Source: a virus. Taken from it: 31,077 nt of DNA. Shown here one piece after another: positions 4,266 to 26,013 of the stretch. Both the position numbers and the translations under genes were made by a program. The notes beneath the pieces were generated by a model. That model did not search any database. It was not told where the DNA came from and worked only from the letters and a program-made list of their open reading frames with translations. Where the stretch lies: IMG/VR virus record IMGVR_UViG_3300046171_000051, positions 1 through 31,077 of that record; one strand, written 5' to 3'. Position 1 is the first letter of the stretch. The number at the start of each line of letters is the position of its first letter.

Positions 4266-4273
4266 ACGTTATA
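4266..4273 (+). promoter_or_regulatory. ACGTTATA box, copy 3, before the portal operon
   Basis: ACGTTATA begins 13 nt before the ATG at 4279, just after a terminator. The terminator-then-box arrangement is the best single argument that the box is a promoter, because the downstream genes otherwise have no visible start of transcription. Confidence 0.65.
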
Positions 4274-4278
4274 TAAGT

Positions 4279-6420: not shown

Positions 6421-6422
6421 TT

Positions 6423-7127: not shown

Positions 7128-7148
7128 TCAACTATTAGAGAATATACA

Positions 7149-11269: not shown

Positions 11270-11272
11270 GAT

Positions 11273-12850: not shown

Positions 12851-12851
12851 G

Positions 12852-13681: not shown

Positions 13682-14000
13682 ATTATGTGTAACGATTGCT
13701 TTTTTGTGGGTATGTGCGATATCTGCACAGGTTGAAGTAATTCAGTATAGTGCTGAGTTTGTAAAAGACAATGAGGTTTCTTTAAAACCTTTTAAGGCGT
13801 ATGATGCTAAAACATTGTATATGTCAAAGGAGAGTAGTGCCTTTAAAAAACACAATATAAAATATATTCCTACAATTATATTGTTTTATAACGATGAGGA
13901 AGTAATGCGAGTAGAATCAGGTATATCTCTTAAACTTCCTGATAATGCGATACAAAGAATCGAAGAAGAAATTGAAGAAATAATAGACAGTAAATTTTAA
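13647..14000 (+). CDS. Exported thioredoxin-like protein (117 aa)
   Basis: The N-terminus has a basic region (KLVNKIRL) and a hydrophobic core (CVTIAFLWVCAISAQ), ending in an AxA-like ISAQ site: a probable signal peptide of ~28 residues. The mature part resembles a minimal thioredoxin fold, with FKKHNIKYIPTIILFYNDEE carrying the cis-Pro (IPTI) and the strand after it. No CxxC redox pair is present, so it is unlikely to be a normal oxidoreductase. Similar proteins occur in marine flavophages. It may act in the periplasm on receptor or lysis proteins; that is conjecture. Confidence 0.55.
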   Translation: MKDYIKLVNKIRLCVTIAFLWVCAISAQVEVIQYSAEFVKDNEVSLKPFKAYDAKTLYMSKESSAFKKHNIKYIPTIILFYNDEEVMRVESGISLKLPDNAIQRIEEEIEEIIDSKF

Positions 14001-14002
14001 TT

Positions 14003-15172
14003 ATGAGAACACTTATTACATTTATTATGTTTTTTGTAGTTACACAAACTACATCACAAAACCTGTTTGAGAAAATATACAAAGACTTATTTAAGTACAG
14101 TACTGTTTATGTAGCAGGTAACATTGACAATCCTAAAGAACAACCCAAAGATTATTTTGTAAGAACAAATCCTGATGGTAACATATACGCACCTCCTGTT
14201 GTTGTTGATGGTACAGATTACTATGACTTTGACTACAGGTATGGTTTTGGTATTCGTAAGATAGCAAGATTTGATTACGAAATAAAAGGAAAACATTACT
14301 ACGATGGCACAGAAAACAATATTGGACTATCAGCAAGTAGCTCTCCTGTAAGCGGTTTAGAATACACCTTTCACTTTGAGAAAGAAAGATCAAGAGACGA
14401 AATATATAAAAACCACAGATACTTCATAAAGCATAGTGGCAAATACCATATGGTAAAAGTAGAAAGTAGAAAGCAAGGTAGAGTAGATTTTAACTATCAA
14501 TCAGCAGAAGCAAGAGCTAAACTACCTATTGGAAAGAAGTTTAGTTTAAATGCAGGATTAATTTATAGAACACACGAAAGACCTTATGGCTACAACCCAA
14601 TAGAGATATGGCTAAACGAAACAAACGAAGATGGTTTTCCTGTAAATTATTGGTTTCAGCTTGGTTATAATTATGGCTTTACTGACCAATGGGTTACAAT
14701 AGATATTGACGGAGAACAAGTGTATGATTACTATTGGTATGATCCACAAGGAAACGTTGTTGCATACACAGACTTGCAATTTCGAGATACGATATTTGAG
14801 TCCCTAATTAACCGATTTAATAATGAGGTGTGGGATCAATTAGATTACTTTGGTGTATTAAGTCCTGTAGTAGGTTTTGACTTTTATCATTATAAGAAAA
14901 ACTTTTGGCTACACGCACACGGATCATACCTGCTTCCGTATCACAAATACGTACAAGGAGATATTGACTTTAGTTACCTCAACAGAAATAATTGGGGATT
15001 AGGTGGACTAAGACACGGTGCAGAGGGAGAGCAATGGGAGGATTACCAATTTGGAACTTCTTTTGGATGGATAATATCAAAAAAAATTGGGGTTTTCGTA
15101 GAGGGAGAATACACTAAGTTTTGGGATTCCAAGATATATAATTCAAGCATAGGTTTAAATTTTAGATTATGA
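14003..15172 (+). CDS. Exported beta-barrel-like outer-membrane protein (389 aa)
   Basis: Starts with a signal peptide (MRTLITFIMFFVVTQTTSQN, cut probably after TSQ). The body alternates aromatic and polar strands (YRYGFGIRKIARFDYEIKGK, FSLNAGLIYRTHERPYGY, GTSFGWIISKKIGVFVEGEY) and ends in SIGLNFRL with an aromatic residue near the C-terminus, a beta-barrel signature recognised by the BAM machinery. Phage-encoded barrel proteins are known in flavophages without a settled role. Options are altering the host surface to block later infection, or weakening the outer membrane at lysis. It overlaps the amidase by ATGA, so it is made with the lysis genes. Confidence 0.65.
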   Translation: MRTLITFIMFFVVTQTTSQNLFEKIYKDLFKYSTVYVAGNIDNPKEQPKDYFVRTNPDGNIYAPPVVVDGTDYYDFDYRYGFGIRKIARFDYEIKGKHYYDGTENNIGLSASSSPVSGLEYTFHFEKERSRDEIYKNHRYFIKHSGKYHMVKVESRKQGRVDFNYQSAEARAKLPIGKKFSLNAGLIYRTHERPYGYNPIEIWLNETNEDGFPVNYWFQLGYNYGFTDQWVTIDIDGEQVYDYYWYDPQGNVVAYTDLQFRDTIFESLINRFNNEVWDQLDYFGVLSPVVGFDFYHYKKNFWLHAHGSYLLPYHKYVQGDIDFSYLNRNNWGLGGLRHGAEGEQWEDYQFGTSFGWIISKKIGVFVEGEYTKFWDSKIYNSSIGLNFRL

Positions 15173-15597
15173 GACAAATAACAAAAATCATAGTACATTG
15201 TACAGCTACACCTGAGGGTAGAGAAGTTAACGTTGATGAAATAAGAAAGTGGCATACTGATCCTCCACGTAATTGGTCAGACATAGGTTATCATTTTCAT
15301 ATTAAGTTAGACGGAGAACTACAAGAGGGTAGACCAATAGAAAGGACAGGCGCACATTGTTCAGGACAAAACTATTGTAGTATAGGAATAAGTTATGCAG
15401 GTGGTATGACTAAAGATATGAAAGAGCCTAAAGATACACGTACACAAGCACAAAGAGAAACTTTAGTAGACCTACTACACGAACTAAAAGAGCAATACCC
15501 AAAAGCAAAGATATATGGTCATTCAGACTTCTCAACAAAAAGCTGTCCAAATTTTGATGCAAAAATGGAGTTTAGTTATATAAGTGATATGTGCTAA
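15169..15597 (+). CDS. N-acetylmuramoyl-L-alanine amidase, endolysin
   Basis: 142-aa single-domain Amidase_2 enzyme of the T7 lysozyme type. It cleaves the bond between N-acetylmuramic acid and L-alanine of peptidoglycan at the end of infection. Zinc ligands line up as His10 (IIVHCTA), His118 (YGHSD) and Cys126 (KSCPNFD). Tyr41 (GYHFHI) and Lys124 match the T7 catalytic Tyr46 and Lys128 in spacing. There is no signal peptide, so it needs a holin, supplied by the gene at 15733. TAATG overlap with the next small gene. Confidence 0.9.
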   Translation: MRQITKIIVHCTATPEGREVNVDEIRKWHTDPPRNWSDIGYHFHIKLDGELQEGRPIERTGAHCSGQNYCSIGISYAGGMTKDMKEPKDTRTQAQRETLVDLLHELKEQYPKAKIYGHSDFSTKSCPNFDAKMEFSYISDMC

Positions 15598-15740
15598 TGG
15601 ATTTTTCTGTAATACTTTTACTTCCTAATGGTTTAAATCTTGGGTTTAACTATTACCCCTCTGATGATACTTATGAATACGAGGAAATGAATATATACTT
15701 ATTAGTTGTACAACTTAAATGGAGATTTTATTATGAGTAA
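15597..15740 (+). CDS. Small lysis-region protein (47 aa)
   Basis: Begins MDFSVILLLPNGLNLGFNYY in a TAATG overlap with the endolysin and runs 8 nt into the holin gene. It is half hydrophobic (VILLLPNGL, YLLVVQLKW) with an acidic middle (DDTYEYEEMN). I recall similar short proteins with LPNGL..GF.YYP between endolysin and holin in Bacteroidota phages. It could modulate the holin; no direct evidence. Confidence 0.6.
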   Translation: MDFSVILLLPNGLNLGFNYYPSDDTYEYEEMNIYLLVVQLKWRFYYE

Positions 15741-16155
15741 GAAAAAATTTAAAGACACAAAGGTAGGACAATTTCTATTGTCTAAAGGCAGTAACATAGC
15801 AGACTTTGTTGGCGATGCTTTACCCTCAGAGGGATTATTAGGCATTGTAAAGAACGTTATTAGTAAAGATGAGGCTTTACCACCACAAGACAAAGAGGAA
15901 GCATTAAAACGCTTAGAATTTGATTTAATAGAAATGCAAGAGGTTACTAAAAGGTGGGTAGCAGATTCTCAAGGCTCAAGGCTTACACAAAACGTAAGAC
16001 CTCTAACTTTAATTTTTTTGACTGTTGCTTTTGTGATTGGTTGGTTCTTACAAATAGAAGAACTTGAAGTTGTAAAAGAATTACTTACGATTGTTTTCTT
16101 GGCTTACTTTGGCGGAAGATCAGTTGAGAAATTTCAGAAAATTAAAAACCCCTAA
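15733..16155 (+). CDS. Holin of the 3TM (GTA-type) family
   Basis: Start set at ATG 15733 (MSKKKFKDTKVGQFLLSKGS); an earlier ATG at 15706 lies inside the preceding gene. 140 aa. The N-terminal ~75 residues are soluble and contain LGIVKNVISKDEALPPQDKE, then the motif SRLTQNVRPLTLIFLTVAFV with a membrane helix (~91-106). A second helix (~115-130, LLTIVFLAYFGGRSVEK) follows. This pattern matches the '3TM holin' family first described in gene transfer agents. It forms the inner-membrane lesion that lets the amidase reach the wall. Last gene of the late region before an AT-rich gap. Confidence 0.8.
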   Translation: MSKKKFKDTKVGQFLLSKGSNIADFVGDALPSEGLLGIVKNVISKDEALPPQDKEEALKRLEFDLIEMQEVTKRWVADSQGSRLTQNVRPLTLIFLTVAFVIGWFLQIEELEVVKELLTIVFLAYFGGRSVEKFQKIKNP

Positions 16156-16262
16156 TATAGTATTAATATATAGTATTTACAGAGTAGGTTGTTTAAGGGA
16201 TCAATATATATTATATATATAATAGGCAAGTTATACTTTTTTTTTGTAACTTTAAAATAAAA
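16156..16262 (+). promoter_or_regulatory. AT-rich gap with a host-type -7 element
   Basis: About 107 nt that are almost all A/T, with TATA-rich runs around 16203-16223. TAACTTTA at 16247-16254, nine nt before the ATG at 16263, fits the Bacteroidota TAnnTTTG -7 element. No good TTG lies 19 nt upstream, so the -33 part is weak. The same TAACTTTAA string occurs at 16897. No coding sequence seen. Such an AT-rich late/early border is also a reasonable place for an origin, but no repeats mark one. Confidence 0.45.
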
Positions 16263-16412
16263 ATGAATATTTCTGTCAAAATAAAAAACTTAGGTGAGAA
16301 AAATGAGAGATACGATCTATCTCTTAAAACCTACAAAGATAGCATTACAGGCACTTTTAACAAAGAAGATTTACGATACCTCATCGAGAAAATAGACAAT
16401 GCAATAGTTTGA
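16263..16412 (+). CDS. Small protein (49 aa) leading the early operon
   Basis: MNISVKIKNLGEKNERYDLS, then KTYKDSITGTFNKEDLRYLI and EKIDNAIV. A mixed alpha/beta small soluble protein. Its TGA overlaps the TTG start of ninG. No family recognised. Position downstream of a host-type -7 element suggests early expression. Confidence 0.55.
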   Translation: MNISVKIKNLGEKNERYDLSLKTYKDSITGTFNKEDLRYLIEKIDNAIV

Positions 16413-16804
16413 GAAAACCAAAACGTAAAACCCTTATAAAAAAACTTGATAAGGTTTTCAGCGAATACATAAGACGTAAATATGCAGACAAGAACGGCAT
16501 AGTATCTTGTTATACTTGTGGTAAGAAAGCATATTGGAAAGGAGAGGGTATGCAGAACGGACACTTTATATCTCGAAGATCAAGAATACTTAGATGGGAT
16601 GAAAGAAATTGTAAAGTTCAATGTTACAGCTGTAATGTGATGCGATATGGAGAATCCTATATCTTTGGGGTTAAGCTTAATCAAGAGTATGGTTACAACA
16701 TAGCTGACGAACTTTTGATAGAAAGTAAAAAAATTATAAAACAAAGCGATGAGGATTTAAAAAATTTGATTAAATTGTATGAAGATAAAATAAAAGAGAC
16801 ATAG
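16409..16804 (+). CDS. ninG: NinG-like recombination protein
   Basis: 131 aa, TTG start overlapping the previous stop. It carries the NinG/Rap hallmarks: a first Cys pair CYTC (34-37), the HNH-like core MQNGHFISRRS (48-58), then a second cluster NCKVQCYSC (67-75). Lambda NinG (Rap) is a structure-specific endonuclease acting on recombination intermediates such as Holliday junctions. Shorter than lambda NinG (~200 aa), but the zinc-binding and HNH elements are present. A strong terminator follows, so this short unit is separate from the genes beyond 16919. Confidence 0.8.
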   Translation: MRKPKRKTLIKKLDKVFSEYIRRKYADKNGIVSCYTCGKKAYWKGEGMQNGHFISRRSRILRWDERNCKVQCYSCNVMRYGESYIFGVKLNQEYGYNIADELLIESKKIIKQSDEDLKNLIKLYEDKIKET

Positions 16805-16833
16805 TTTTTCATTTAATTTGTTTTTTATTTAGG

Positions 16834-16863
16834 GAGCTTTACTTCGGTAAGGCTCTTTTTTTT
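16834..16863 (+). terminator. Rho-independent terminator after ninG
   Basis: GAGCTTTAC (16834-16842) pairs with GTAAGGCTC (16847-16855), nine pairs including one wobble, capped by a TTCG tetraloop and followed by eight Ts. One of the strongest hairpins in the window. Confidence 0.9.
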
Positions 16864-16874
16864 ATTAACAATAG

Positions 16875-16904
16875 TTGGTATTTGAAATATTTTTTATAAC
16901 TTTA
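16875..16904 (+). promoter_or_regulatory. Host-type Bacteroidota promoter
   Basis: TTG at 16875-16877, a 19-nt spacer, then TAACTTTA at 16897-16904, close to the Bacteroidota TTG / TAnnTTTG pair. It lies right after the ninG terminator and 15 nt before the ATG at 16919, so it probably drives the ssDNA-binding and replication genes early in infection. Confidence 0.6.
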
Positions 16905-16918
16905 AGAAAAAATAAATT

Positions 16919-17029
16919 ATGGAAAGTCCAAAAGATCAGTTAATAGAATTGTATTATAGAAGGATACAAGCTATGACTTTTAAAATAGAACAATTAGAAA
17001 AACAATTAAATTATGAAAGGAAAAATTAA
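16919..17029 (+). CDS. Tiny coiled-coil protein (36 aa)
   Basis: MESPKDQLIELYYRRIQAMT followed by IEQLEKQLNYERKN, one amphipathic helix. First ORF after the host-type promoter; its end overlaps the start at 17013 by 17 nt. It may be a real micro-protein or only a translated leader. Confidence 0.4.
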   Translation: MESPKDQLIELYYRRIQAMTFKIEQLEKQLNYERKN

Positions 17030-17363
17030 GTTTATACAAGAAAAAGGAGAATGGTCAAATAGTTCAGGCACATTCAATAAGTATCAAGTCCACTTTGACG
17101 ATGGTCAAAGCTATCAGTTTTTAGCTAAAGGAGATTTTAAACGAAATGTTGGAGATGAGTGTGAGTATGAAATCACAAACAAACAATACGGAACTGCTAA
17201 GTTAATTTACACACCTCCTCAAGCTGCACCTAATAAAGATGTAACAATATCTAAGTTAGCGTGTTTAAAGGCTGCTGCTGAGTTTAATGCAGGTAGACCT
17301 CAGTCAGACAGAGTAAGTGTCGTAGAAGATGCTAAACACTTCTATAGTTGGATAATAAGTTAA
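17013..17363 (+). CDS. Beta-rich early protein, possible ssDNA-binding protein (116 aa)
   Basis: The N-terminal ~70 residues are strand-rich (MKGKIKFIQEKGEWSNSSGT, YQVHFDDGQSYQFLAKGDF), suggesting an OB-like fold. A proline linker (TPPQAAPNKD) leads to a helical end (LACLKAAAEF). Similar proteins occur next to the DUF3127-like gene in flavobacterial phages. A role in ssDNA binding or recombination is plausible from the fold and neighbour. No enzyme motif. Confidence 0.5.
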   Translation: MKGKIKFIQEKGEWSNSSGTFNKYQVHFDDGQSYQFLAKGDFKRNVGDECEYEITNKQYGTAKLIYTPPQAAPNKDVTISKLACLKAAAEFNAGRPQSDRVSVVEDAKHFYSWIIS

Positions 17364-17366
17364 GTT

Positions 17367-17786
17367 ATGGTAATAAGCAACGAAATATTTGAAACTTATA
17401 GAATTAGAGAAAAAGCAAGAAATATATTTAAACAACAATTAATAATGAATAAAATGTCAATAACAGGAAAAATAAAAACAATTTTAGAAACAGAAGAAAA
17501 AGGAAACTTTAGAGTAAGAAAGTTAATCGTAGAAACAAACGAGAAATATCCTCAAGTTGTAGCACTTGATTTTACACAAAATAATGTCGGACTTTTGGAT
17601 GATCCTATTTGTAAAGTAGGAAACAATGTAGAAGTATTTTACAACGTAAGAGGTAGAGCTTGGGAAAACAGAGAGGGTAAGACTTTATACTTCACATCCC
17701 TGCAAGGTTGGAGAGTTAGAGAGTATAAAGAAGAAGTAACTACTAAAGATCAAGCTCCTGACAGAGAAGATGACTTACCATTTTAA
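17367..17786 (+). CDS. DUF3127-like ssDNA-binding protein
   Basis: The conserved part starts at MSITGKIKTILETEEKGNFR and continues with RKLIVETNEKYPQVVALDFT and GNNVEVFYNVRGRAWENREG. It ends in an acidic tip, DREDDLPF, like the C-terminal tip of SSB that recruits repair proteins. DUF3127 proteins are OB-fold candidates in Bacteroidota. The first 26-29 residues from ATG 17367 do not look conserved, so ATG 17445 or 17454 may be the true start, giving ~110 aa. Expected to coat ssDNA during replication. A strong terminator follows directly. Confidence 0.7.
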   Translation: MVISNEIFETYRIREKARNIFKQQLIMNKMSITGKIKTILETEEKGNFRVRKLIVETNEKYPQVVALDFTQNNVGLLDDPICKVGNNVEVFYNVRGRAWENREGKTLYFTSLQGWRVREYKEEVTTKDQAPDREDDLPF

Positions 17787-17792
17787 TATTGA

Positions 17793-17817
17793 GGGGGTTT
17801 AGCGACCCCCTTTTTTT
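17793..17817 (+). terminator. Rho-independent terminator touching the helicase start
   Basis: GGGGGT (17793-17798) pairs with ACCCCC (17805-17810) around a TTAGCG loop, followed by seven Ts (17811-17817). The next base, 17818, is the A of the helicase ATG. Helicase expression must therefore come from readthrough past a hairpin that would also cover its ribosome-binding region. Confidence 0.85.
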
Positions 17818-18753
17818 ATGCTTATAAACTATTCAGAACATATAAACCGACTAAACGACTTTCGTAAAGGCAAAGTAAAAGAATCCCTTACATTAGGTAT
17901 CAAAGAAATAGACTCACACTTTAGGTTTGTGCATAGCAATTTGGTAATGTGGTTAGGATTTCCAAATATAGGTAAGACACATTTTGTTATATATATAATG
18001 ATGTTGTATGCCATTAAGCATAACTTAAGGTTTTTAATTTTTTCGAGCGAAAATGACCCTGTCAGTTTAATCCGTAAAAAAATAGAGTTCTATTATGGAT
18101 TGCCAATAAATAAAATAGAAGAAGCTGATTATAAAAAGGGTGTCGAGTTTGTAGATAAACATTTTAAATATGTAGATTGCTCTAAACAATATACTTATAT
18201 GAGTTTGTTATCCTTAGCAACAAATATTAAGAATGCTTGGGATTACGATTGTTTAATGGTTGATCCTATAAACTCTTTAAAGAAAGAAATAAAAGTAGGT
18301 AGCAATTCGTTTGAGTATGGCTATGAGCAGCTTACAGAGCTAAGGATATTCTCTAAGAAGTATAACGTAGCAACGTGGGTCTGTCTACATACAAACACAG
18401 AGGCTCTAAGAAAGGTGCATCCTAAAGGACACGACTTTGAGGGACAACCTGCTGTTCCAAATTATGCCTCAGCAGAGAATGGACAGATGAACGCCTCGAG
18501 ATCTTGTGATTTTGTAACACTTCACCGTTATATATACGACAAAAGAGATTGGATGTACACAAGGATGTTTGTTAGTAAGGTCAAAAATCAAGAACTCGGT
18601 TATCGTCCAAATTCGATGAACGACCCCATAATGTGGAAAAGTATTATTAATAATGTAGGATTTGAAATAGCAGGTCAGAATCCTGTACCATATCCAACAA
18701 AAAAACAACTAACCATTGAAAACAACACTACAAAAAATAGCAGAGAAGCATAG
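17818..18753 (+). CDS. RecA-fold (DnaB-like) replicative helicase
   Basis: 311 aa, RecA-like ATPase. The Walker A variant is GFPNIGKTH (47-55). A DnaB-like SSEND motif follows (76-80). Walker B is DCLMVDP with Asp149. A later loop has CLHTNTEALRKVHPKGHDFE and GQPAVPNYASAENGQMNASR, like the H3/arginine-finger region of DnaB/gp4 helicases. The N-terminal primase-binding domain of DnaB is absent, so this is a core helicase as in many small phages, likely moving on ssDNA 5'-3' at the fork. Its 3' end overlaps the sigma-like gene by 38 nt. Confidence 0.75.
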   Translation: MLINYSEHINRLNDFRKGKVKESLTLGIKEIDSHFRFVHSNLVMWLGFPNIGKTHFVIYIMMLYAIKHNLRFLIFSSENDPVSLIRKKIEFYYGLPINKIEEADYKKGVEFVDKHFKYVDCSKQYTYMSLLSLATNIKNAWDYDCLMVDPINSLKKEIKVGSNSFEYGYEQLTELRIFSKKYNVATWVCLHTNTEALRKVHPKGHDFEGQPAVPNYASAENGQMNASRSCDFVTLHRYIYDKRDWMYTRMFVSKVKNQELGYRPNSMNDPIMWKSIINNVGFEIAGQNPVPYPTKKQLTIENNTTKNSREA

Positions 18754-19213
18754 CGATTGGTTACGCATAGTAAAGAGCTTTGGATGCAAAAATGAATATT
18801 GCGAAGATATTGTTCAGACTATGTATATAAAAGCACACACTCTTATAAGTAATGGCACAGATATAAGTTACGGAGATGATATAAACCACTTTTATATTTA
18901 TAGAATCTTACGTAGTTTGTTTATTGATTTATGTCGCAAAGAAGCGAAAGTAACAAAAGTAAACTTAGAACACTTAGAGAGATTTATACAGGAAGAAGAA
19001 GTACAAGAATACAAAGATATAGAGGGTAAAATGAAACAATTAGACAGCTTGTTAGATAAGGTGTATTGGTATGACAGAAAAGTATTTGATCTTATCAGCG
19101 AGGGAATGAGTATAGCAGAATTATCAAAGAGGTCAGGTATAAGTTATTACTCTTTATACAACACATACAAAAACGTAAAATCATTAATTAAAAATAACAT
19201 ACAATGGGATTAG
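18716..19213 (+). CDS. ECF-like RNA polymerase sigma factor (phage-encoded)
   Basis: 165 aa. Residues ~10-77 fit sigma region 2: the helix YCEDIVQTMYIKAH (28-41) and RILRSLFIDLCRKEAK. An acidic linker follows. Residues ~121-160 fit region 4 with a helix-turn-helix: DRKVFDLISEGMSIAELSKR then SGISYYSLYNTYKNVKSLI. The size is that of an ECF sigma factor. Such proteins direct host RNA polymerase to phage promoters. The obvious candidate target is the ACGTTATA box before the late genes, whose CGTT core suits an ECF -10 element. Sigma-like fold is well supported; target assignment is inference. Confidence 0.65.
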   Translation: MKTTLQKIAEKHSDWLRIVKSFGCKNEYCEDIVQTMYIKAHTLISNGTDISYGDDINHFYIYRILRSLFIDLCRKEAKVTKVNLEHLERFIQEEEVQEYKDIEGKMKQLDSLLDKVYWYDRKVFDLISEGMSIAELSKRSGISYYSLYNTYKNVKSLIKNNIQWD

Positions 19214-19335
19214 GAGATTTAATAGAAAAGATTACAACATACACAGGTATCAAGTGGTTAGTAAAAAAGATATGGGGAGATGATTGTGGTTGCGACAAGC
19301 GAAAAGATAAAGCAAACAAAGTAAAGCTATGGTAG
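19204..19335 (+). CDS. Small conserved protein with CGC motif (43 aa)
   Basis: MGLGDLIEKITTYTGIKWLV, then KKIWGDDCGCDKRKDKANKV. The opening MGLGDxIEKxTxxTGIK and the CGCDKRK cluster are familiar from many Bacteroidota phages and prophages, where the protein has no assigned role. It overlaps the sigma gene end by 10 nt and the next start by ATGGTAG. Confidence 0.7.
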   Translation: MGLGDLIEKITTYTGIKWLVKKIWGDDCGCDKRKDKANKVKLW

Positions 19336-19523
19336 AAAAAGACTTAGATAGGTGGTTAAAGTTTATTAGCAGACCAAAACAAAACGAACTGAATCGAGAG
19401 GAAATAAAATTAGTATGTGAACTTCATTCTAAATATTATCATCCAAAAAAGTATTACGAGCCGTGTTCCTGTAATGGCTCTATATATCGAAGATGGATTC
19501 AAGACCTTAACAGACTTTTATAA
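19329..19523 (+). CDS. Conserved small protein (64 aa) with PCxC motif
   Basis: DLDRWLKFISRPKQNELNRE, then KLVCELHSKYYHPKKYYEPC and CNGSIYRRWIQDLNRLL. The pattern ELxxxYYxHxxxEPCxCN...RWIxDLN is one I know from Bacteroidota phages, always short and near the MGLGD-type gene. The Cys/His residues could bind a metal. Function unknown. Its last base overlaps the ATG of the endonuclease gene. Confidence 0.65.
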   Translation: MVEKDLDRWLKFISRPKQNELNREEIKLVCELHSKYYHPKKYYEPCSCNGSIYRRWIQDLNRLL

Positions 19524-20164
19524 TGGAAGATTACTATTATACATTATCTATACCTACTGCTGTTTATAGAAAGTTAAACAAGAAACAATCGATAAATAAG
19601 TATTTCAAAACAGATTATGTAGGTAACTGTATGGAATTGATCACAGACTTCTACAAAACAACATCCGACTATACACACAAATCTTGGGAAGATTATTACA
19701 AAGAGATAGTAGGCTTTACACAATTAGAGCTTGTTTACGAAAAGATTAAAGAACTATCTGACCAAAAAGAAAGTTATCTTAAAAGATATGTTTGGCACAG
19801 AGTAATAGGTCAAACTTGGAATGGATTTAGAAACGAGATAAGAATAATAGAAGAACTACAAGCAGAGTTTAAAAACGTTAAGATATATAAAACATCATTT
19901 GAAAAGGATCACGAATATTGTATAGATGCTGAAATGTACAACAACAACATTTTATTACTTGGCATACAAATAAAACCTATCAGCTACAAATTAATGAATA
20001 GTCCTTATCAACTTAAGGCAAAAGAAAACCACAAAGCGAAGAACGAAAAGTATAAATCTAAGTATGCACCCTATATTTATGTGTATCATAAGAATCATAA
20101 GATTTATAAAAAATCAGATATAGTAAACCAAATAAATACTATTTTTCACTTAAATACATATTAA
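19523..20164 (+). CDS. MjaI-family-like restriction endonuclease
   Basis: 213 aa. The N-terminal part (LSIPTAVYRKLNKKQSINKY, KTDYVGNCMELITDFY) and the helix RVIGQTWNGFRNEIRIIEEL match my memory of MjaI-type enzymes of Bacteroidota. The catalytic core fits a PD-(D/E)xK variant: Glu110, then Asp135 (YCIDAEMY), then Gln149-Ile-Lys151 in LLLGIQIKPISY. MjaI itself cuts CTAG, and I find no CTAG in this genome. The enzyme could destroy host or rival DNA while the phage lacks the site. The cognate methylase would be the gene at 22573, or none is needed. Family call is moderate; CTAG specificity is inference. Confidence 0.6.
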   Translation: MEDYYYTLSIPTAVYRKLNKKQSINKYFKTDYVGNCMELITDFYKTTSDYTHKSWEDYYKEIVGFTQLELVYEKIKELSDQKESYLKRYVWHRVIGQTWNGFRNEIRIIEELQAEFKNVKIYKTSFEKDHEYCIDAEMYNNNILLLGIQIKPISYKLMNSPYQLKAKENHKAKNEKYKSKYAPYIYVYHKNHKIYKKSDIVNQINTIFHLNTY

Positions 20165-20166
20165 CA

Positions 20167-20196
20167 TTTGTTTATATAATATTTTTTTGTATATTG
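20167..20196 (+). promoter_or_regulatory. Host-type Bacteroidota promoter
   Basis: TTTG at 20167-20170, a 19-nt spacer, then TATATTG at 20190-20196, very close to the Bacteroidota TTTG / TAnnTTTG consensus. It sits in the 48-nt gap after the endonuclease gene, 16 nt before the ATG at 20213, and probably starts the second early transcript. Confidence 0.65.
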
Positions 20197-20212
20197 CAGT
20201 AAATTAATAATT

Positions 20213-20359
20213 ATGAAAACACTTATAGACGAATTAGTAATATTAGAAGATTATGCAGTAACAGGCACATTTGCTTGGAGATCAGACATTGATCCTAATT
20301 GGAAGCCGATGGTATGGAACGAGACTTTTGAATGTTGGACAAAGAACTACTGTGGATAA
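20213..20359 (+). CDS. Small protein (48 aa), first gene after the promoter
   Basis: MKTLIDELVILEDYAVTGTF, then AWRSDIDPNWKPMVWNETFE and CWTKNYCG. Soluble and acidic with several Trp. It overlaps the next gene (GTG 20352) by 8 nt. The next gene is in the +1 frame, so a single fused protein interrupted by one extra base cannot be excluded. No family recognised. Confidence 0.5.
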   Translation: MKTLIDELVILEDYAVTGTFAWRSDIDPNWKPMVWNETFECWTKNYCG

Positions 20360-20645
20360 AAAGATAGACAATCTTAAAGACTTAGAAATTTGGTCAGACC
20401 TAAACTTTTTGACTTCTATTGTTCAGAAACAACTAAACAAGAAAAAGTCAGAGAACTTAGAGAAGATGTCAGAATCTTTAATAAGGATTGTCTTTTACTT
20501 TCAAGAATATTCCAACAACATACGATTATATAAAAAAGCATTATCAGAATATAAACAAACTAAAAACCGAGCCATTGAAAGAGCAAGAAGATCAGAACAA
20601 GAAAATGAAAAACTAATAAAAAATTATGGAACACGAATTAGTTAA
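20352..20645 (+). CDS. Helical coiled-coil protein (97 aa)
   Basis: GTG at 20352 is preferred. Upstream codons in this frame back to 20271 overlap the preceding gene and do not look conserved. The product is nearly all helix: WSDLNFLTSIVQKQLNKKKS, NLEKMSESLIRIVFYFQEYS, KALSEYKQTKNRAIERARRS. The MSESLxxIVFYFQEYSNNxR and Arg-rich RAIERARRSEQENEKL parts look like short coiled-coil proteins of other flavophages. Function unknown; it overlaps the next gene by 20 nt. Confidence 0.55.
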   Translation: MDKKIDNLKDLEIWSDLNFLTSIVQKQLNKKKSENLEKMSESLIRIVFYFQEYSNNIRLYKKALSEYKQTKNRAIERARRSEQENEKLIKNYGTRIS

Positions 20646-20973
20646 AACGACATACAAACAAATTAATCTATGTACCGATTTAGATAAATGGATAGATAAA
20701 GACTGTATGCTTATAAAGACCAAATATCTAAAATATTTTGATGATGAATATAAAATAATGGAAAGTATCTCAAGCGTATTTGTAGATGATGCTTGTGATC
20801 CCATTAATATAGATTATGTAGAGGGGGGTATTAGAATAAACACTAAAAGTTTTGTACATATAGATTTAGATGAAAATCACATATTGTTCTTATTAAAATT
20901 TTTAAGGTATGCCAAAAAAATAGATGATAAGTGTTTTAATATGACACCTAAACAAATTGAAAAATTTAAATGA
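20626..20973 (+). CDS. Hypothetical early protein (115 aa)
   Basis: MEHELVKTTYKQINLCTDLD, later DCMLIKTKYLKYFDDEYKIM, GGIRINTKSFVHIDLDENHI and LFLLKFLRYAKKIDDKCFN. Acidic, mixed alpha/beta, no signal peptide or known motif. I do not recognise it. It is packed between a coiled-coil protein and a membrane peptide in the promoter-20167 operon and ends with ATGA. Confidence 0.5.
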   Translation: MEHELVKTTYKQINLCTDLDKWIDKDCMLIKTKYLKYFDDEYKIMESISSVFVDDACDPINIDYVEGGIRINTKSFVHIDLDENHILFLLKFLRYAKKIDDKCFNMTPKQIEKFK

Positions 20974-21059
20974 AAAAATACGAAAACAAAATAAAAGCCG
21001 TAGCATTTAGCTACTTAGGAATTATACTTACTTTACTATGGATTATATTCAGCTCTTAG
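20970..21059 (+). CDS. Single-TM micro-protein (29 aa)
   Basis: MKKYENKIKAVAFSYLGIIL followed by TLLWIIFSS: a basic cytoplasmic start and one membrane helix of ~17 residues. ATGA overlap with the gene before; its end overlaps the nuclease start at 21038 by 22 nt. Such peptides may target host membrane processes, but no function can be assigned. Confidence 0.5.
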   Translation: MKKYENKIKAVAFSYLGIILTLLWIIFSS

Positions 21060-21811
21060 ACGAAGAACGATTTAAAAAGGAGGAGATATTAGAACTTATG
21101 AAAGATGATGAGTTTTACTATGGTTACTTAGGAAAGGCAGCTTTAAGTTCCTCATCAATCAAACTACTACTTGATAGTCCAAAGAAATACAAATACGTTA
21201 CCGAGTATGGATCACAAGAATCAAATGCTTTAGATGCAGGATGGTTATTTCATACCTGTATCTTAGAGCCTGATGTATTTGAGAAACAAATCTTTGTAGA
21301 CGTACAATCTAAAAACACAAAGGCATATAAGTTAGCTAAAGAAGAACACGGCAGGGTGTTTACAAGAAAACAAAAAAACGATGCAGAAAGATTAGCTGAT
21401 GCTTTCTTTAGAAATGAACACGCTCTCAAACTAATAACTAAATGTGAGTTCGAAGTACCTGCAATAGGTATGGTGCAAGGTTATCCTTTTAGGGGTAAAG
21501 CAGATGTCCTTGATTCTTATAGAGTGGTTGATCTTAAAACAACAAGCGACTTAAAAGCATTCCCCTACGCAGCAAGAAAATACGGATATGATGTACAAGT
21601 GTATATCTATTCAGAGCTATTCAATAAACCTTACGAGGAGTTTAAATTTGTAGCTATTGACAAAGGATCATTAGATATAGGTATCTATGATGTAAGTAAA
21701 GAGTTCTACGAATCAGGAAAGGCTAAAGTAACCAAAGCATTAGAGACATATCAGGCTTTCTTTATAGATGGTGCTGATATAGATAGTTATTGTATAAAAG
21801 GAACATTATGA
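21038..21811 (+). CDS. RecE-like PD-(D/E)xK exonuclease
   Basis: 257 aa. Resembles the phage 'exodeoxyribonuclease VIII' family (PDDEXK_12-like). GWLFHTCILEP supplies the conserved His72. RGKADVLD gives Asp156. VVDLKTTSD gives Asp165-x-Lys167. YDVQVYIYSELF carries the QxxxY motif typical of lambda-Exo/RecB-type nucleases. It would resect 5' ends to make ssDNA for annealing, working with the ssDNA-binding protein(s) and NinG upstream. No RecT/Beta annealase was recognised. ATGA overlap to the next gene. Confidence 0.8.
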   Translation: MDYIQLLDEERFKKEEILELMKDDEFYYGYLGKAALSSSSIKLLLDSPKKYKYVTEYGSQESNALDAGWLFHTCILEPDVFEKQIFVDVQSKNTKAYKLAKEEHGRVFTRKQKNDAERLADAFFRNEHALKLITKCEFEVPAIGMVQGYPFRGKADVLDSYRVVDLKTTSDLKAFPYAARKYGYDVQVYIYSELFNKPYEEFKFVAIDKGSLDIGIYDVSKEFYESGKAKVTKALETYQAFFIDGADIDSYCIKGTL

Positions 21812-22251
21812 ATAGAGAAGCAAAGAGGGTAGCAAGTTATTTATATGACATATCAGGAGTAGATGTGTTTGAAAACAACAGAAGAAGATATACTATAGAA
21901 GCAAGATCATTATTAACTTTTGTATTAAGAAACCATTTTGATATGACTTTTCATCAAATAAAAGAGTTTTATCAAGCCAATGGTAAAAATTATGATCACG
22001 CAACAGCATTACATAGTTTAAGGTCTTTTGAGGTGCATAGAAGATACTCAAAGTTTTTAGATAAATGGTTAGTACAGATACAACGTTTATTAGTAAACAA
22101 ACAAGATATTAAAAAGGCTTTGTTAAAACATAGAATAGAATATTTGTATTCATATGACGTAGACAAACTTCTTAGAATAACAAACGATATGAAATTAAAA
22201 AAAATAGATGGAAAAGAACAAACAAAAGAGAAAACAGATACCACTTTATAG
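21808..22251 (+). CDS. DnaA-like helix-turn-helix protein (147 aa)
   Basis: Start taken at ATG 21808 (ATGA overlap); a TTG 18 nt upstream is unlikely. Residues ~30-75 resemble the DnaA domain IV DNA-binding unit. ARSLLTFVLRNHFDMTFHQI is followed by NYDHATALHSLRSFEVHRRY, where DHATALHS parallels the DnaA signature DHSTVLHA. No ATPase domain is present. It may bind an origin and load the helicase, or interfere with host DnaA. The C-terminal half is basic and helical. Overlaps the next gene by 44 nt. Confidence 0.65.
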   Translation: MNREAKRVASYLYDISGVDVFENNRRRYTIEARSLLTFVLRNHFDMTFHQIKEFYQANGKNYDHATALHSLRSFEVHRRYSKFLDKWLVQIQRLLVNKQDIKKALLKHRIEYLYSYDVDKLLRITNDMKLKKIDGKEQTKEKTDTTL

Positions 22252-22576
22252 TGGCTTAGTAAAATACTTTCCTGATGCACTATGCGAGGTAGCAAGAGTT
22301 AGCTACATAGGAAGTAAACAACACCACCCTGACAAAGAGATACATTGGGATAGAGAAAAGAGTAGTGATGACTTAGATGCACTTATGCGACACCTAATGG
22401 AGAATGGTATGTATGATATTGATGGAGTAAGACACACAGCAAAAATAGCTTGGAGAGCATTAGCACACTTACAAAAAGAAATAGAGGAGGACAATGTAAG
22501 AGACGAGCAATGGCACATAGACCAATACAATCGCAATAGACATCCATCAGACCACATCATAGCAGGTACAGAATGA
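22208..22576 (+). CDS. dATP/dGTP diphosphohydrolase N-terminal-domain-like protein
   Basis: 122 aa. The sequence YSGLVKYFPDALCEVARVSY, HHPDKEIHWDREKSSDDLDA, LMRHLMENGMYDIDGVRHTA and AWRALAHLQKE matches the small all-alpha domain annotated in phages as dGTP/dATP diphosphohydrolase, N-terminal (DUF5664-like). The conserved His and Glu/Asp could hold metal. In phages that use modified bases the full enzyme shapes the nucleotide pool; here only the one domain is present, so activity is uncertain. Directly coupled (ATGA) to the methyltransferase. Confidence 0.65.
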   Translation: MEKNKQKRKQIPLYSGLVKYFPDALCEVARVSYIGSKQHHPDKEIHWDREKSSDDLDALMRHLMENGMYDIDGVRHTAKIAWRALAHLQKEIEEDNVRDEQWHIDQYNRNRHPSDHIIAGTE

Positions 22577-23217
22577 TTTACAACCAAGATTGTATGGAAG
22601 CAATGAAAGAGATGTCAGACAATCAGTTTGACTTAGCTATTGTTGATCCTCCCTATGGTATTGGCGAGGATGGTAAAAAAAATCATAGTAGGGGTGGTAA
22701 AGCAAAACCTACATTATATACGCCAAAAAATTGGGATAGTAAATCGCCTGACAAAGACTTTTTTATACAAGTTAAAAGAGTAAGTAAAAATCAAATAATA
22801 TTTGGTGCAAATCATTTTGTAGAAAACATACCTTATCCAAACAGTTCTTGTTGGATAGTATGGGATAAATTAAATGGCAACAATGACTTTGCTGATTGTG
22901 AATTAGCTTATACGAGCTTTAAAACATCGGTAAGAAAATATAACTTTAGATGGGCAGGTATGTTACAAGGAGATATGAAAAATAAAGAAATAAGAATACA
23001 TCCTACACAAAAACCTGTAAAACTTTATGAGTGGTTGTTAATTAAATATGCAAAAGAGGGAGATACAATACTTGATACACATTTAGGTAGTGGCTCAATA
23101 GCTATAGCTTGTCATAACTTAGGGTTTGAGCTAACAGGATACGAAATAGACAAAGAATACTTTGAAGCAGCAAAGAAACGAATAGAACAACATAAACAAC
23201 AAGGCAGACTATGGTAA
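22573..23217 (+). CDS. Type II DNA methyltransferase (N6-adenine or N4-cytosine, beta order)
   Basis: 214 aa. Motif IV VDPPYGIG is near the start (24-31), followed by a target-recognition region. Motif X-like HPTQKPVKLYEWLL comes next, then motif I DTHLGSGSIAIAC and GYEIDKEYFEAA near the C-terminus. This order is beta-class, amino-methyltransferase. It would methylate phage DNA against host restriction or partner the MjaI-like nuclease 2.4 kb upstream. Target sequence cannot be read from the protein. CATG and CTAG are both absent here, so the enzyme is not needed to protect those sites on its own genome. Confidence 0.85.
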   Translation: MIYNQDCMEAMKEMSDNQFDLAIVDPPYGIGEDGKKNHSRGGKAKPTLYTPKNWDSKSPDKDFFIQVKRVSKNQIIFGANHFVENIPYPNSSCWIVWDKLNGNNDFADCELAYTSFKTSVRKYNFRWAGMLQGDMKNKEIRIHPTQKPVKLYEWLLIKYAKEGDTILDTHLGSGSIAIACHNLGFELTGYEIDKEYFEAAKKRIEQHKQQGRLW

Positions 23218-23330
23218 ACAAAAAATACACCACAATACAAAGAATAAAAAGATTAGAGAATATAGTAAGCCAAATCTACTTGAGTGTTGAGGTAATTAAA
23301 AAGCAGCTTGACAAAAAAGAAGAAAAGTAA
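23211..23330 (+). CDS. Small coiled-coil protein (39 aa)
   Basis: MVNKKYTTIQRIKRLENIVS, then QIYLSVEVIKKQLDKKEEK. Basic helix with heptads, overlapping the methyltransferase stop. The stop (TAA 23328-23330) is the first base of an ACGTTATA box. Similar short helical proteins precede terminase genes in flavophages. Role unknown. Confidence 0.5.
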   Translation: MVNKKYTTIQRIKRLENIVSQIYLSVEVIKKQLDKKEEK

Positions 23331-23337
23331 CGTTATA
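23330..23337 (+). promoter_or_regulatory. ACGTTATA box, copy 4, before the terminase genes
   Basis: Same 8-mer as at 131, 2062, 4266 and 24797, but 35 nt rather than 13 nt before the ATG (23365), with a small hairpin between. If it is a promoter it marks the border from early to late genes and gives the terminase mRNA a ~20-nt leader. Confidence 0.5.
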
Positions 23338-23338
23338 T

Positions 23339-23360
23339 ACTTGAATAATCAAGTTTTTTT
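23339..23360 (+). other. Small hairpin plus T-run in the terminase leader
   Basis: ACTTGA (23339-23344) pairs with TCAAGT (23349-23354) around ATAA, followed by six further Ts. The stem is only six A/T-rich pairs, so it is a weak terminator, an operator, or a leader structure. It lies between the ACGTTATA box and the small terminase start. Confidence 0.4.
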
Positions 23361-23364
23361 CAAG

Positions 23365-23604
23365 ATGAGTAAACACGGAGGTAAAAGAGAGGGCGCAGGT
23401 AGAAAGCCTAAACAACAAGAACAAGACCTAATAGACAAGCTCGATACTATTATAAACAAAGAAGAAGTAATTAAAAAGTTAGGAGAAAAAGCTCTTAGTG
23501 GAGATATGAGAGCTATGGGTTTATATATGGGTTATAGATATGGTAAACCAAAAGAAACAAAGGATATACACATAAACGAAGATGTTCCTTTATTTATTGA
23601 TTAA
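23365..23604 (+). CDS. Small terminase subunit-like protein (79 aa)
   Basis: Start at ATG 23365, since upstream codons (from 23308) cross the preceding gene. MSKHGGKREGAGRKPKQQEQ is the GG(K/R)xGAGRKP motif that opens many phage small terminases and related DNA-binding proteins. A helix-loop region (LGEKALSGDMRAMGLYMGYR, YGKPKETKDI) follows. At 79 aa it is short for a TerS, but its place one base before terL supports DNA recognition for packaging. Overlap with terL is a single base. Confidence 0.6.
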   Translation: MSKHGGKREGAGRKPKQQEQDLIDKLDTIINKEEVIKKLGEKALSGDMRAMGLYMGYRYGKPKETKDIHINEDVPLFID

Positions 23605-24050
23605 TGCAAGTAACAAAAACTGAAGCACTACTTAAACTCAGAGAACTTAACAAAAGAGTTCGTATCATAAGAGGGGGATCATCAGCAGGTAAAACAATAG
23701 CTATTATAGCAATTCTTATTGATTATGCAATTAGAGAAAAGGGAAAAGAAATAAGCATAGTAGCTGAATCTGTACCACACTTACGTAGAGGCGCTTTAAA
23801 AGACTTTCTAAACATCTTAAAGGCATTGAATAGGTATGATGACAGAAAGTTTAACAAGAGTACCTTAAAATACGAATTTAGTAGTGGTAGCTATATAGAG
23901 TTCTTTAGCACAGATCAGCCTGACAAACTAAGAGGAGCAAGAAGAACAGACTTATTTATAAACGAGTGTAACAATGTTAGCTTTGATTCCTACCAACAAT
24001 TAGCAGTTAGAACATCAGGTAACATTTGGCTTAGACTACAATCCTGCTAA
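23604..24050 (+). CDS. Large terminase, N-terminal ATPase part (frame broken at ~24030-24033)
   Basis: Encodes the packaging ATPase: Walker A RIIRGGSSAGKT (~20-31), then IVAESVPHLRRGALKDFLNI. The adenine/C motifs and the Walker-B-like DLFINECNNVSF with its catalytic Glu follow. After GNIWL the frame reads RLQSC and stops at 24048-24050. The next frame gives the expected LDYNPANLFWVDKEL. One surplus base in TGG-CTT-A-GAC (A at 24033, or C at 24030) explains it. With a second change near 24220-24232, the full gene is 23604-24775 and encodes 389 aa, a normal TerL length. Confidence 0.8.
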   Translation: MQVTKTEALLKLRELNKRVRIIRGGSSAGKTIAIIAILIDYAIREKGKEISIVAESVPHLRRGALKDFLNILKALNRYDDRKFNKSTLKYEFSSGSYIEFFSTDQPDKLRGARRTDLFINECNNVSFDSYQQLAVRTSGNIWLRLQSC

Positions 24051-24051
24051 T

Positions 24052-24261
24052 TTGTTTTGGGTAGACAAAGAACTAATAGGACAGCAAGATGCGAACTTCA
24101 TAACACTTACTTATAAAGACAACAACAGCCTACCTGAAACAATAGTAAAAGAAATAGAGAAAGCTAAAGAGAAAGGCAAGACCTCAACCTATTGGGCAAA
24201 TTGGTGGAAGGTGTACGGACTTGGGACAGATAGGAAGTTTAGAGGGTGTATGTATTCCTGA
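24052..24261 (+). CDS. Large terminase, middle part (between two frame changes)
   Basis: Continuation of TerL in the second frame from about 24034: DYNPANLFWVDKEL, QQDANFITLTYKDNNSLPET, STYWANWWKVYGLG. It then runs off frame (TDRKFRGCMYS) to a stop at 24259-24261. The expected continuation GQIGSLEGVCIPDW is in the next frame. The extra base lies somewhere in 24220-24232, where GGG-A-CAG and CTT-G-GGA are both possible. The nominal start at 24052 is only the first ATG-like codon of the track and is not a real start. Confidence 0.7.
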   Translation: MFWVDKELIGQQDANFITLTYKDNNSLPETIVKEIEKAKEKGKTSTYWANWWKVYGLGTDRKFRGCMYS

Positions 24262-24775
24262 TTGGAAACCTATTGATAGAATACCTGTTGAGGCACGATT
24301 ATTGTGTTCAGGGTTAGACTTTGGCTATTCGGTTGATCCCTCAACAATTATCAGGCTTTATAAATGGAATGATGCTTATATCTTTGATGAGGTGTTGTAT
24401 CGTAAAGGAATGTTAAATAGAGACCTCAGCTACTTCATTAAACAAAACGAGATACGAGAAAACATATACGCAGATAGTGCAGAGCCTAAATCAATACAAG
24501 AGTTGAGAAACTACGGACACAAAGTATTTCCTGTAACAAAGGGTAGAGACTCTATAGTCTATGGTATCAACCTAATCAACCAAAACGAAATCTACATTAC
24601 AAGCCATTCTAAGAATCTAATCAGAGAGTTACAGGGTTATGTATGGGATAAAGACAAAGAGGGAAACAATCTACAAAAACCTACAGGTACACATCCTGAT
24701 TGTATTGATGCAGCACGATACGCACTAATGATGCAACTAAAGAATCCTAATAGGGGTCAGTATGCAATTAGATAG
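24221..24775 (+). CDS. Large terminase, C-terminal nuclease part
   Basis: Third segment of TerL. GSLEGVCIPDWKPIDRIPVE is the linker. The RNase-H-like nuclease follows: LDFGYSVDPSTIIRLY with the first Asp, NIYADSAEPKSIQELRNYGH with the second, and THPDCIDAARYALMMQL with the third acidic cluster. It cuts concatemeric DNA at the start and end of packaging. Intact from about 24233 to TAG at 24773-24775. The three segments read as one enzyme with no residue missing. Confidence 0.8.
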   Translation: MGQIGSLEGVCIPDWKPIDRIPVEARLLCSGLDFGYSVDPSTIIRLYKWNDAYIFDEVLYRKGMLNRDLSYFIKQNEIRENIYADSAEPKSIQELRNYGHKVFPVTKGRDSIVYGINLINQNEIYITSHSKNLIRELQGYVWDKDKEGNNLQKPTGTHPDCIDAARYALMMQLKNPNRGQYAIR

Positions 24776-24796
24776 TTTCTAAAACTTTTTTTTATT

Positions 24797-24804
24797 ACGT
24801 TATA
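24797..24804 (+). promoter_or_regulatory. ACGTTATA box, copy 5, before the tail module
   Basis: ACGTTATA starts 13 nt before the ATG at 24810, in the short gap after the terminase. It follows a T8 run without a hairpin. Same box and spacing as at 131, 2062 and 4266, so the tail genes probably share their control with the head genes. Confidence 0.6.
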
Positions 24805-24809
24805 TATAT

Positions 24810-25457
24810 ATGAAAGTAGAGGTTTATATTCCTGACACTTTGAGTGAAATAACTTTAGGTCAATATCAAAAGTATCTAAAGATACAATCTGAGAATGAAG
24901 ATGAGAACTTCTTAGCTATAAAAATGATAGAAATATTTTGTGGACTAAGAGGCGATACGATATTATCGATGAAAGCTAAAAGCATAAGAGACATAACAAC
25001 TATTTTAAGTAATATGTTTAACGAGAAGCCTCAACTTGTTAAAGAGTTTAAAATGGGTAAAAAGACTTATGGTTTTATTCCTAAGTTAGAAGATATGACT
25101 TTTGGAGAGTATGTTGATCTTGATACCTACATAGGAGATATTCCAAACTTACATAGAGCTATGGCTGTTTTGTACAGACCAATAAAACTAAAAGATAAAC
25201 AAAAATATCTCATAGAAGATTACAAAGGAGAAGAATCTGACAAAATGAAAGATATGCCGATGGATGCTGTATTAAGTTCTATGATTTTTTTTTACAATTT
25301 AGGGATGGACTTGTCGAAAGCTATGCTGAACTTTTTGGAGGAGGAGGAGATGGACTTAGTGCAACAGCAAATTTTGGAAGAAAGTGGGGATGGTATCAAT
25401 CGCTTTTCGGACTCTCTCAAGGAGATATTAGAAGATTTGAAGATATCACTAAATTAA
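24810..25457 (+). CDS. Tail assembly chaperone, short form (lambda gpG-like role)
   Basis: 215 aa, helical, soluble: VYIPDTLSEITLGQYQKYLK, EDMTFGEYVDLDTYIGDI and LSSMIFFYNLGMDLSKAM, then an acidic EEEE stretch and NRFSDSLKEILEDLKISLN. I recognise this pattern from flavophage genes placed ahead of the tail proteins and tape measure. A second frame begins at the T9 tract (25285-25293) and runs past this stop, as in lambda G/GT. The short form would coat the tape measure protein before tube assembly. Confidence 0.65.
   Translation: MKVEVYIPDTLSEITLGQYQKYLKIQSENEDENFLAIKMIEIFCGLRGDTILSMKAKSIRDITTILSNMFNEKPQLVKEFKMGKKTYGFIPKLEDMTFGEYVDLDTYIGDIPNLHRAMAVLYRPIKLKDKQKYLIEDYKGEESDKMKDMPMDAVLSSMIFFYNLGMDLSKAMLNFLEEEEMDLVQQQILEESGDGINRFSDSLKEILEDLKISLN
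25285..25293 (+). promoter_or_regulatory. T9 slippery tract, probable -1 programmed frameshift site
   Basis: ATG ATT TTT TTT TAC in the chaperone frame contains nine Ts, allowing tandem -1 slippage on U-UUU-UUU. After slippage the frame reads LQFRDGLVESYAELFGG and stays open for 84 codons to 25546. No ATG, GTG or TTG start lies near the beginning of that frame, so slippage is the simplest way to express it. Confidence 0.7.
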
Positions 25458-25546
25458 ACATACACACCTGTCTTTATGCTTTGACATTTATGAAAGAAAA
25501 AGCAGAGGTAGAATCAAAGAATATAAAAAGTAAATTTAATCGATGA
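25292..25546 (+). CDS. Tail assembly chaperone, -1 frame extension (long form, gpGT-like)
   Basis: Reached by -1 slippage at 25285-25293; the fusion would be 161 residues of the short form plus 84 new ones, 245 aa in all. The extension contains DGLVESYAELFGGGGDGLSA, FGRKWGWYQSLFGLSQGDI and RRFEDITKLNIHTCLYALTF, ending with a Lys-rich tail. 'NFGKKWGWYxxxxxLxxGDxxRFxxxTKL' is a motif I know from tail-module proteins of Bacteroidota phages. It ends with ATGA on the next gene. In lambda the equivalent T domain recruits the tube protein. Confidence 0.7.
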   Translation, partial: LQFRDGLVESYAELFGGGGDGLSATANFGRKWGWYQSLFGLSQGDIRRFEDITKLNIHTCLYALTFMKEKAEVESKNIKSKFNR

Positions 25547-26013
25547 ATCAAGGAGTAAGAGGCTATTACCAAATCACAGATACTATCAAGACAAATCTTT
25601 TATTAGATGAGAATGTCAATACTGTAACAACAGGCGATATATTTGATATCGACCTATCTAAGCAAACAATCTTTCCTTTAAGTCATATAGTAATAAACTC
25701 TGTAGAGATACAAGAACAAGTCCTCAACTTCAACATAACTGTAATGGCTATGGATGTTGTAGATCAGTCTAAGGATGAAACAACAGACGTATTTAGAGGC
25801 AACAACAACGAGCAAGATATTATAAACACACAGTTAGCTGTAGTAAACAAATTAGTAGGTCTACTTAGTAAAGGCACACTATATCAAGATAAATATCAGT
25901 TAGAGGGCACAGCTTCTTGTGAGTTTTTTTATGAAAGGTTTGAGAATCAAATGGCAGGTATAGCTTGTACGTTTAATGTATTAATTGCTAATGATATAAA
26001 CGTATGCAGCTAA
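25543..26013 (+). CDS. Tail completion/terminator-like protein (156 aa)
   Basis: Starts MNQGVRGYYQITDTIKTNLL, then VNTVTTGDIFDIDLSKQTIF, VLNFNITVMAMDVVDQSKDE and CEFFYERFENQMAGIACTFN. The alternating helix/strand plan, size and place before a gp10-like gene fit tail terminator or head-tail joining proteins of flavophages. No signal peptide. Exact ring position in the virion cannot be told. Overlaps the next gene by 10 nt. Confidence 0.55.
   Translation: MNQGVRGYYQITDTIKTNLLLDENVNTVTTGDIFDIDLSKQTIFPLSHIVINSVEIQEQVLNFNITVMAMDVVDQSKDETTDVFRGNNNEQDIINTQLAVVNKLVGLLSKGTLYQDKYQLEGTASCEFFYERFENQMAGIACTFNVLIANDINVCS

Follow-up and report, generated by a model that had tools for sequence, protein, structure and literature searches.

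The marine phage DNA analysed here (the window, an entire IMG/VR virus record, 31,077 bases long and with a GC content of 33%) encodes a putative nuclease, A, and lacks the four-letter words that A is inferred to recognise. We consider it very probable that A is an orphan nuclease of the RE_MjaI family directed against CTRG, that the phage is immune to it through genome-wide loss of the sites, and that its gene occupies a slot in which such purging nucleases are swapped. Without a cognate methylase, the phage would escape its own enzyme because no CTRG site is left in its genome, and in the infected cell A would cut any DNA still bearing sites, be it the host chromosome, plasmids or co-infecting phages. 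Computation established family membership, a predicted fold, the absence of the sites, the co-occurrence of this absence with the gene across several lineages, the lack of a detected paired methylase, the turnover of the slot and snapshots of the swap; the catalytic activity and exact specificity of A are inferred, with no biochemistry, and so is its use against host or competing DNA.

19523..20164, plus strand: nuclease A, an orphan restriction endonuclease of the RE_MjaI family, 213 aa (open reading frame, RE_MjaI matches of relatives, PADLOC profile and structural model).
19811..19825, plus strand: conserved Q97-T-W-N-G101 motif of A (invariant in ten members).
19925..19975, plus strand: predicted catalytic core of A, D135 to Q149-I-K151 (invariance in ten members; residue roles inferred).
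1..31077, no strand: the whole genome as putative immunity element, without CTAG and CCAG/CTGG (word counts and codon shuffle).

An exact count yielded no CTAG in the 31,077 bp, where a maximal-order Markov model predicts 94 sites and base composition predicts 90. This agrees with the preliminary description, which had reported a genome free of CTAG in which GATC, AGCT and GTAC are common (56, 144 and 75 occurrences, respectively). Synonymous-codon shuffling of the coding part (500 rounds, with protein sequences and codon usage held constant) gave 75 ± 7 CTAG sites, with a minimum of 53, so the absence is not explained by composition, codon usage or protein content. A scan of all words of four to six letters identified three complete four-letter absences: CTAG, CCAG/CTGG (95 expected; 90 ± 8 after shuffling) and CATG (69 expected; 44 ± 5 after shuffling). 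The last two had been overlooked in the preliminary description, and that of CATG proved not to be linked to A. Elsewhere in the window, the large terminase subunit is split over three ORFs that overlap or abut (23604-24775) and a portal-like gene over two (4623-6420), reflecting either sequencing errors or real frameshifts.

MjaI cuts CTAG, and the protein had initially been likened to the MjaI family on the strength of a QTWNGFRNE helix, Asp135 and the QIK at 149-151. In an alignment of ten family members sharing 48-92% identity with the window protein, the Q97-T-W-N-G101 motif was kept in all ten and D135, E137, Q149, I150 and K151 were invariant. The predicted active site corresponds to a QxK variant of the acidic-x-K arrangement, formed by D135 and Q149-x-K151, the catalytic role of which is inferred. 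The family assignment itself held only through the relatives. The window protein alone did not match RE_MjaI, even at an E value of 10, and with it as the query no match came from Pfam, NCBIfam or PDB sequences. PF09568 was matched by eight of the ten aligned members (best E value 1e-8), was above its curated cut-off in 11 contigs of relatives, and is carried as a group by alignment members 48-62% identical to the window protein, which itself matched a PADLOC type II restriction endonuclease profile (E = 1.3e-5). A is thus, as judged from sequence comparison through its relatives, a member of RE_MjaI (PF09568). An AlphaFold model of the protein had a pLDDT of 90.5, and the best structural matches to residues 97-213 were the PD-(D/E)XK nucleases Hjc, I-Bth0305I, BsaWI and VRR_NUC (Z 7-8). 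Such Z values are middling when taken alone, the tool warning that this level can reflect a common arrangement, and a Foldseek search of the model against the PDB returned nothing below E 0.06. The modelled core fold, at this middling level, and the invariant residues together place A in the PD-(D/E)XK nuclease superfamily.

The gene lies in a slot delimited by ORFs that recur in related phages, and its start codon overlaps the stop codon of the preceding ORF by one base (TAATG).

19329..19523, plus strand: anchor ORF of 64 aa, upstream edge of the swap slot (ORF list and relatives).
20271..20645, plus strand: ORF marking the slot's downstream flank (in many relatives, related ORFs come after the slot gene).
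21038..21811, plus strand: exonuclease VIII-like gene 3' of the slot (phrog_412, E = 2.6e-36), a landmark and the gene used for the tree, not a part of the nuclease.

The second of these ORFs gave a weak RE_HindVP match (E = 0.014), below the cut-off and probably due to chance.

Relatives were gathered with the nuclease (23) and with the capsid and terminase (about 160 loci), and later sets with the genes replacing A in the slot and with a divergent capsid. Most of the contigs are metagenomic and partial, the nearest isolate found being Nonlabens phage P12024S (capsid 29%), and sampling by gene enriches for carriers, so the counts below are associations rather than frequencies. The test set comprised 75 dereplicated phage loci, each covering the slot, 16 with A and 59 without; a word was scored as lacking at no more than 5% of its expectation. 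CTAG was lacking in 16/16 loci with A and in 7/59 without (Fisher's exact test, 3e-11), and CCAG/CTGG in 16/16 and 2/59, respectively (2e-14). The original claim that CTAG is the missing site thus stood insofar as CTAG tracks the gene, but CCAG/CTGG tracks it as well. That claim would have been refuted by CTAG at near-expected numbers or by the same absence in relatives lacking the nuclease; CTAG is far from its expected number, and such relatives are not as a rule free of it, CTAG being present in 52 of the 59 loci without A and in none of the 16 with it. GATC had no positive association with A in these loci, and the weak association of CATG disappeared in phylogenetically independent pairs. 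When protein clusters were screened without supervision for links to four-letter words, the A family emerged as the best predictor of the absence of both CTAG and CCAG/CTGG.

The association was also evident at short evolutionary distances. Sister phages with capsids and terminases 95-97% identical differ in their sites along with the A gene: L120 (capsid 96%, terminase 97% identical to those of the window) has 41 CTAG and 30 CCAG/CTGG sites in 20.5 kb, and both words are present in L164 and L133. At positions at which relatives without A have a site, the window retains 0/304 CTAG and 0/238 CCAG/CTGG, as compared with 35-71% of the control words AGCT, GTAC and CAGG at homologous positions. In the phylogeny of the neighbouring exonuclease, A is gained or lost nine times, at least six of them on firm branches, and independent pairs agreed with the expected relationship in 5.2 of 6 cases for CTAG and 5.8 of 6 for CCAG, with no opposite case; such pairs are few, and p is about 0.03-0.06. 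Two site-free phages were found to carry A after all, L070 elsewhere on its full contig and L491 at the very start of its contig. Several other site-free contigs have no A, many of which may end before the slot and are therefore uninformative. Some loci are nearly site-free despite a covered slot without A, namely G011 (carrying D), G017 (H) and G024 (B and D); they may represent scars or other causes, neither of which is proved.

The same slot is present in a divergent lineage of about 47% GC, the capsid of which is about 52% identical to that of the window. Its contigs with A (G003, G007, G009 and G462) contain no CCAG/CTGG, with 103-145 sites expected, versus 10-149 sites in nine contigs without A; CTAG is low in this lineage even without A, so only CCAG/CTGG is discriminating there. 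As the absences tracking A are those of CTAG and CCAG/CTGG, we infer that its target is CTAG plus CTGG/CCAG, that is, CTRG read on either strand; this absence is a shadow of specificity, with no assay behind it. Against this reading, an asymmetric site would be unusual for a presumed dimer. The symmetric CYRG was rejected as a strict target, because CCGG is present in two contigs with A (25/60 in G009 and 7/30 in G010) and most A-less contigs of that lineage avoid it; it is not, therefore, tied to A. CATG was also rejected (0.9 same and 1.0 opposite of 6 independent pairs), and loci with A may contain it (18 sites in L004 and 33 in L070).

In related phages, an ORF of the anchor family lies ahead of A, B, C, D or H, and these and other genes occupy the slot after it; slot labels changed 18 times on a 62-row tree. 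The best explanation is that the slot is a swap site for unrelated orphan nucleases. These nucleases would replace each other as cassettes, each occupant that stays imposing its own purge (CTRG for A, GATC for B, CATG for C and CTAG for D). B is a protein of 130 aa with an H-P-x-D-I-D...E-x-K motif, the model of which (pLDDT 79) resembles Hjc (Z 7). Among slot-covered dereplicated loci, GATC was absent from 34/35 with B and from 6/40 without it, and seven sites were seen over 74 loci, against 1499 expected. A B homolog (41%) is also encoded by an unrelated jumbo phage of Tenacibaculum, pT24 (L294, NC_049383.1), in which GATC was absent (0/111 in 40 kb) and CATG, CTAG and TCGA were near normal. 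C is a protein of 137 aa with a D...E-x-K motif; CATG was absent from 19/21 loci with C and from 21/54 without it (slot-covered dereplicated loci). The link between C and CATG is weaker, failing for divergent C proteins (about 50%). H (155 aa) was found at only three loci. Further occupants have PD-(D/E)XK-like motifs, identified by eye, and belong to no Pfam family (L503:3114-3581, L505:7438-7962, L512:10835-11227 and L307:10373-10840).

D is a protein of 107 aa without a PD-(D/E)XK motif (e.g. L107:5206-5529, L326-L405 and L409); database searches gave no match for it and its fold is not recognisable. A link with CTAG was first suspected from five loci and then tested on 54 newly fetched ones from very different phages (29-57% GC), in all of which CTAG was absent. 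Over 36 dereplicated D loci, CTAG was found 0 times against 1150 expected, CCAG 1777 times against 2185, and AGCT and GTAC were near normal. CTAG is likewise absent from a 56-kb contig bearing D in a metagenome-assembled genome of Cytophagales. D appears to be strict for CTAG and is a candidate CTAG nuclease of unknown fold. One D-bearing contig of 57% GC (L334) also lacks GTAC (0/26).

Several contigs may have been sampled shortly after a replacement. In G429, the slot is taken by another gene, which encodes a PD-(D/E)XK-like motif (3114-3581). Six CCAG/CTGG sites lie inside this gene (3164-3568), four at the contig tip (97-265) and none in the remaining 19 kb, in which 96 are expected; this is most naturally read as a replacement of A so recent that the sites are still mainly those brought by the incoming gene. 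In G018, four CTAG sites lie beside the C gene (26842-27528) and none in the other 26.8 kb (85 expected), and all seven exceptional sites of L017 are clustered in a single 750-bp patch over a helicase. After replacement, the earlier purge would remain visible for some time, as a scar. The window lacks CATG (0/69) although it encodes no C-type nuclease, and its nearest neighbours on the tree carry H and C, from which we guess that this absence is a scar of a former C; host restriction would be as good an explanation. Other missing words were also recorded: CTCC/GGAG, a non-palindromic four-letter word, in L312-L313 (contig G015; 0/75), and CTCAG, CTAAG, GGACC, CGCCG, CCAAGG, CGCG and TCGA in L316-L319 (G007, G003) and L321-L322 (G024). 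The absences in G007, G003 and G024 are likely to be due to host restriction or further nucleases.

The use to which A is put is less clear than its association with the missing words. The nuclease could be as described here and nonetheless serve to break down the host chromosome for nucleotides, or to shut off the host, rather than to exclude rivals, a possibility that we regard as somewhat doubtful but that remains a serious alternative or a joint role, as breakdown and exclusion can coexist. An enzyme that cuts often, at four-base sites, would break up any host genome, immunity by absence would serve this role equally well, and an exonuclease gene lies nearby. Host breakdown alone, however, provides no obvious reason for the repeated replacement of specificities reflected in the label changes on the tree. 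We favour the exclusion of rival phages over host breakdown alone, as an inference, because specificity turns over so fast.

It is unlikely that the sites are avoided merely because host restriction-modification systems cut them, with the nuclease being incidental or captured later by phages already free of sites. RE_MjaI is common in Bacteroidota: the profile was above the cut-off in 60 of 395 sampled genomes, and a methylase with an SPPY motif was adjacent in all ten of the best-scoring chromosomal loci; a direct scan of genome contigs for chromosomal relatives of A found none, these genes being detected by the profile search instead. These phages also avoid many other words not tied to A (CATG, CGCG, GGACC and more), and the seven A-less loci lacking CTAG are consistent with avoidance of another origin. 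Against this reading stand the almost exclusive restriction of CCAG/CTGG loss to loci with A, the differences between sister phages, and the confinement of sites in G429 to the replacing gene and the contig tip. Host restriction may instead have prepared the genome for the capture of A, which would be easiest for a phage already stripped of most sites by MjaI-type restriction in its host; this would also explain some of the site-free phages without A.

We see very little to recommend the notion of A as a homing-type endonuclease that propagates its own gene by way of the slot: the slot is indeed fixed and its content swapped by replacement, but the word linked to A has four bases and is absent genome-wide, unlike a single long homing site, and the family is RE_MjaI. 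A second, long target cannot be excluded without a cleavage assay.

No methylase gene adjoining A was found in the phage. The window does encode an N6/N4 DNA methylase (PF01555, DPPY motif) at 22573-23217, but this enzyme was rejected as a partner of A: it is present, 85-90% identical, in L149 and L161, which lack A and have ordinary CTAG counts, and neither of the methylase families searched for was matched in G007 and G009, which carry A and may be incomplete contigs. The idea that A forms one half of a restriction-modification pair carried by the phage, with the genome protected by this methylase or by DNA modification, has the least to commend it, as protected sites need not vanish, yet all have gone. 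Since no cognate partner was found, we conclude that A works like a type II restriction endonuclease (cleavage being inferred) and not as a restriction-modification system, in line with the earlier suggestion that no methylase would be required.

The usual assumption is that a restriction enzyme spares its carrier only when a methylase or modified DNA is present. The restriction-modification enzymes of chloroviruses and endonuclease II of phage T4 are viral nucleases that attack host DNA and spare their own, through methylation or base modification rather than site loss. A shares its endonuclease family and an overlapping inferred target, CTAG, with the MjaI-family type II restriction-modification systems (PF09568), but it has no adjacent methylase, lies in a swap slot, has a wider inferred target (CTGG/CCAG) and would be protected by the absence of sites. 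Prokaryotic viruses are known to lose restriction sites from their genomes (PMC6286503); in those cases the enzyme belongs to the host, whereas in the present one the missing sites go with a nuclease gene of the phage itself. Solitary restriction endonucleases without a neighbouring methylase occur on prokaryotic chromosomes (PMC3488263), in a paper that gives no site-purging account (the word "avoid" is absent), whereas the carrier here is a site-free phage. The restriction endonuclease HHPV4I, encoded by the archaeal virus HHPV4, has likewise been proposed to exclude other viruses (PMC10101028), but it has an SRA-wH-HNH architecture and cuts only methylated Gm6ATC DNA, and is not a site-purge mechanism. 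No account of a phage-encoded orphan restriction enzyme combined with site purging was found in the open-access PubMed Central literature.

These nucleases probably represent a general, so far unrecognised kind of phage weapon, in which site-specific endonucleases of at least four seemingly unrelated families are each encoded by one gene, without a methylase, and exchanged through a slot, with immunity conferred by the genome-wide loss of a word. If this is correct, a third route to self-protection, the loss of every site, appears to have been used repeatedly, in step with gene replacement. As immunity would be the loss of a four-letter word, specificity could be read off the genome without biochemistry, and sequence data alone could lead to sequence-specific nucleases and to what they cut; family D, which would be a nuclease of unknown fold, is an immediate case. 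Old purges would be scars of past slot occupants, and some of the missing words of phage genomes would have an explanation other than host restriction. This interpretation also predicts exclusion among co-infecting phages, in which the words missing from a genome would be its immunities.
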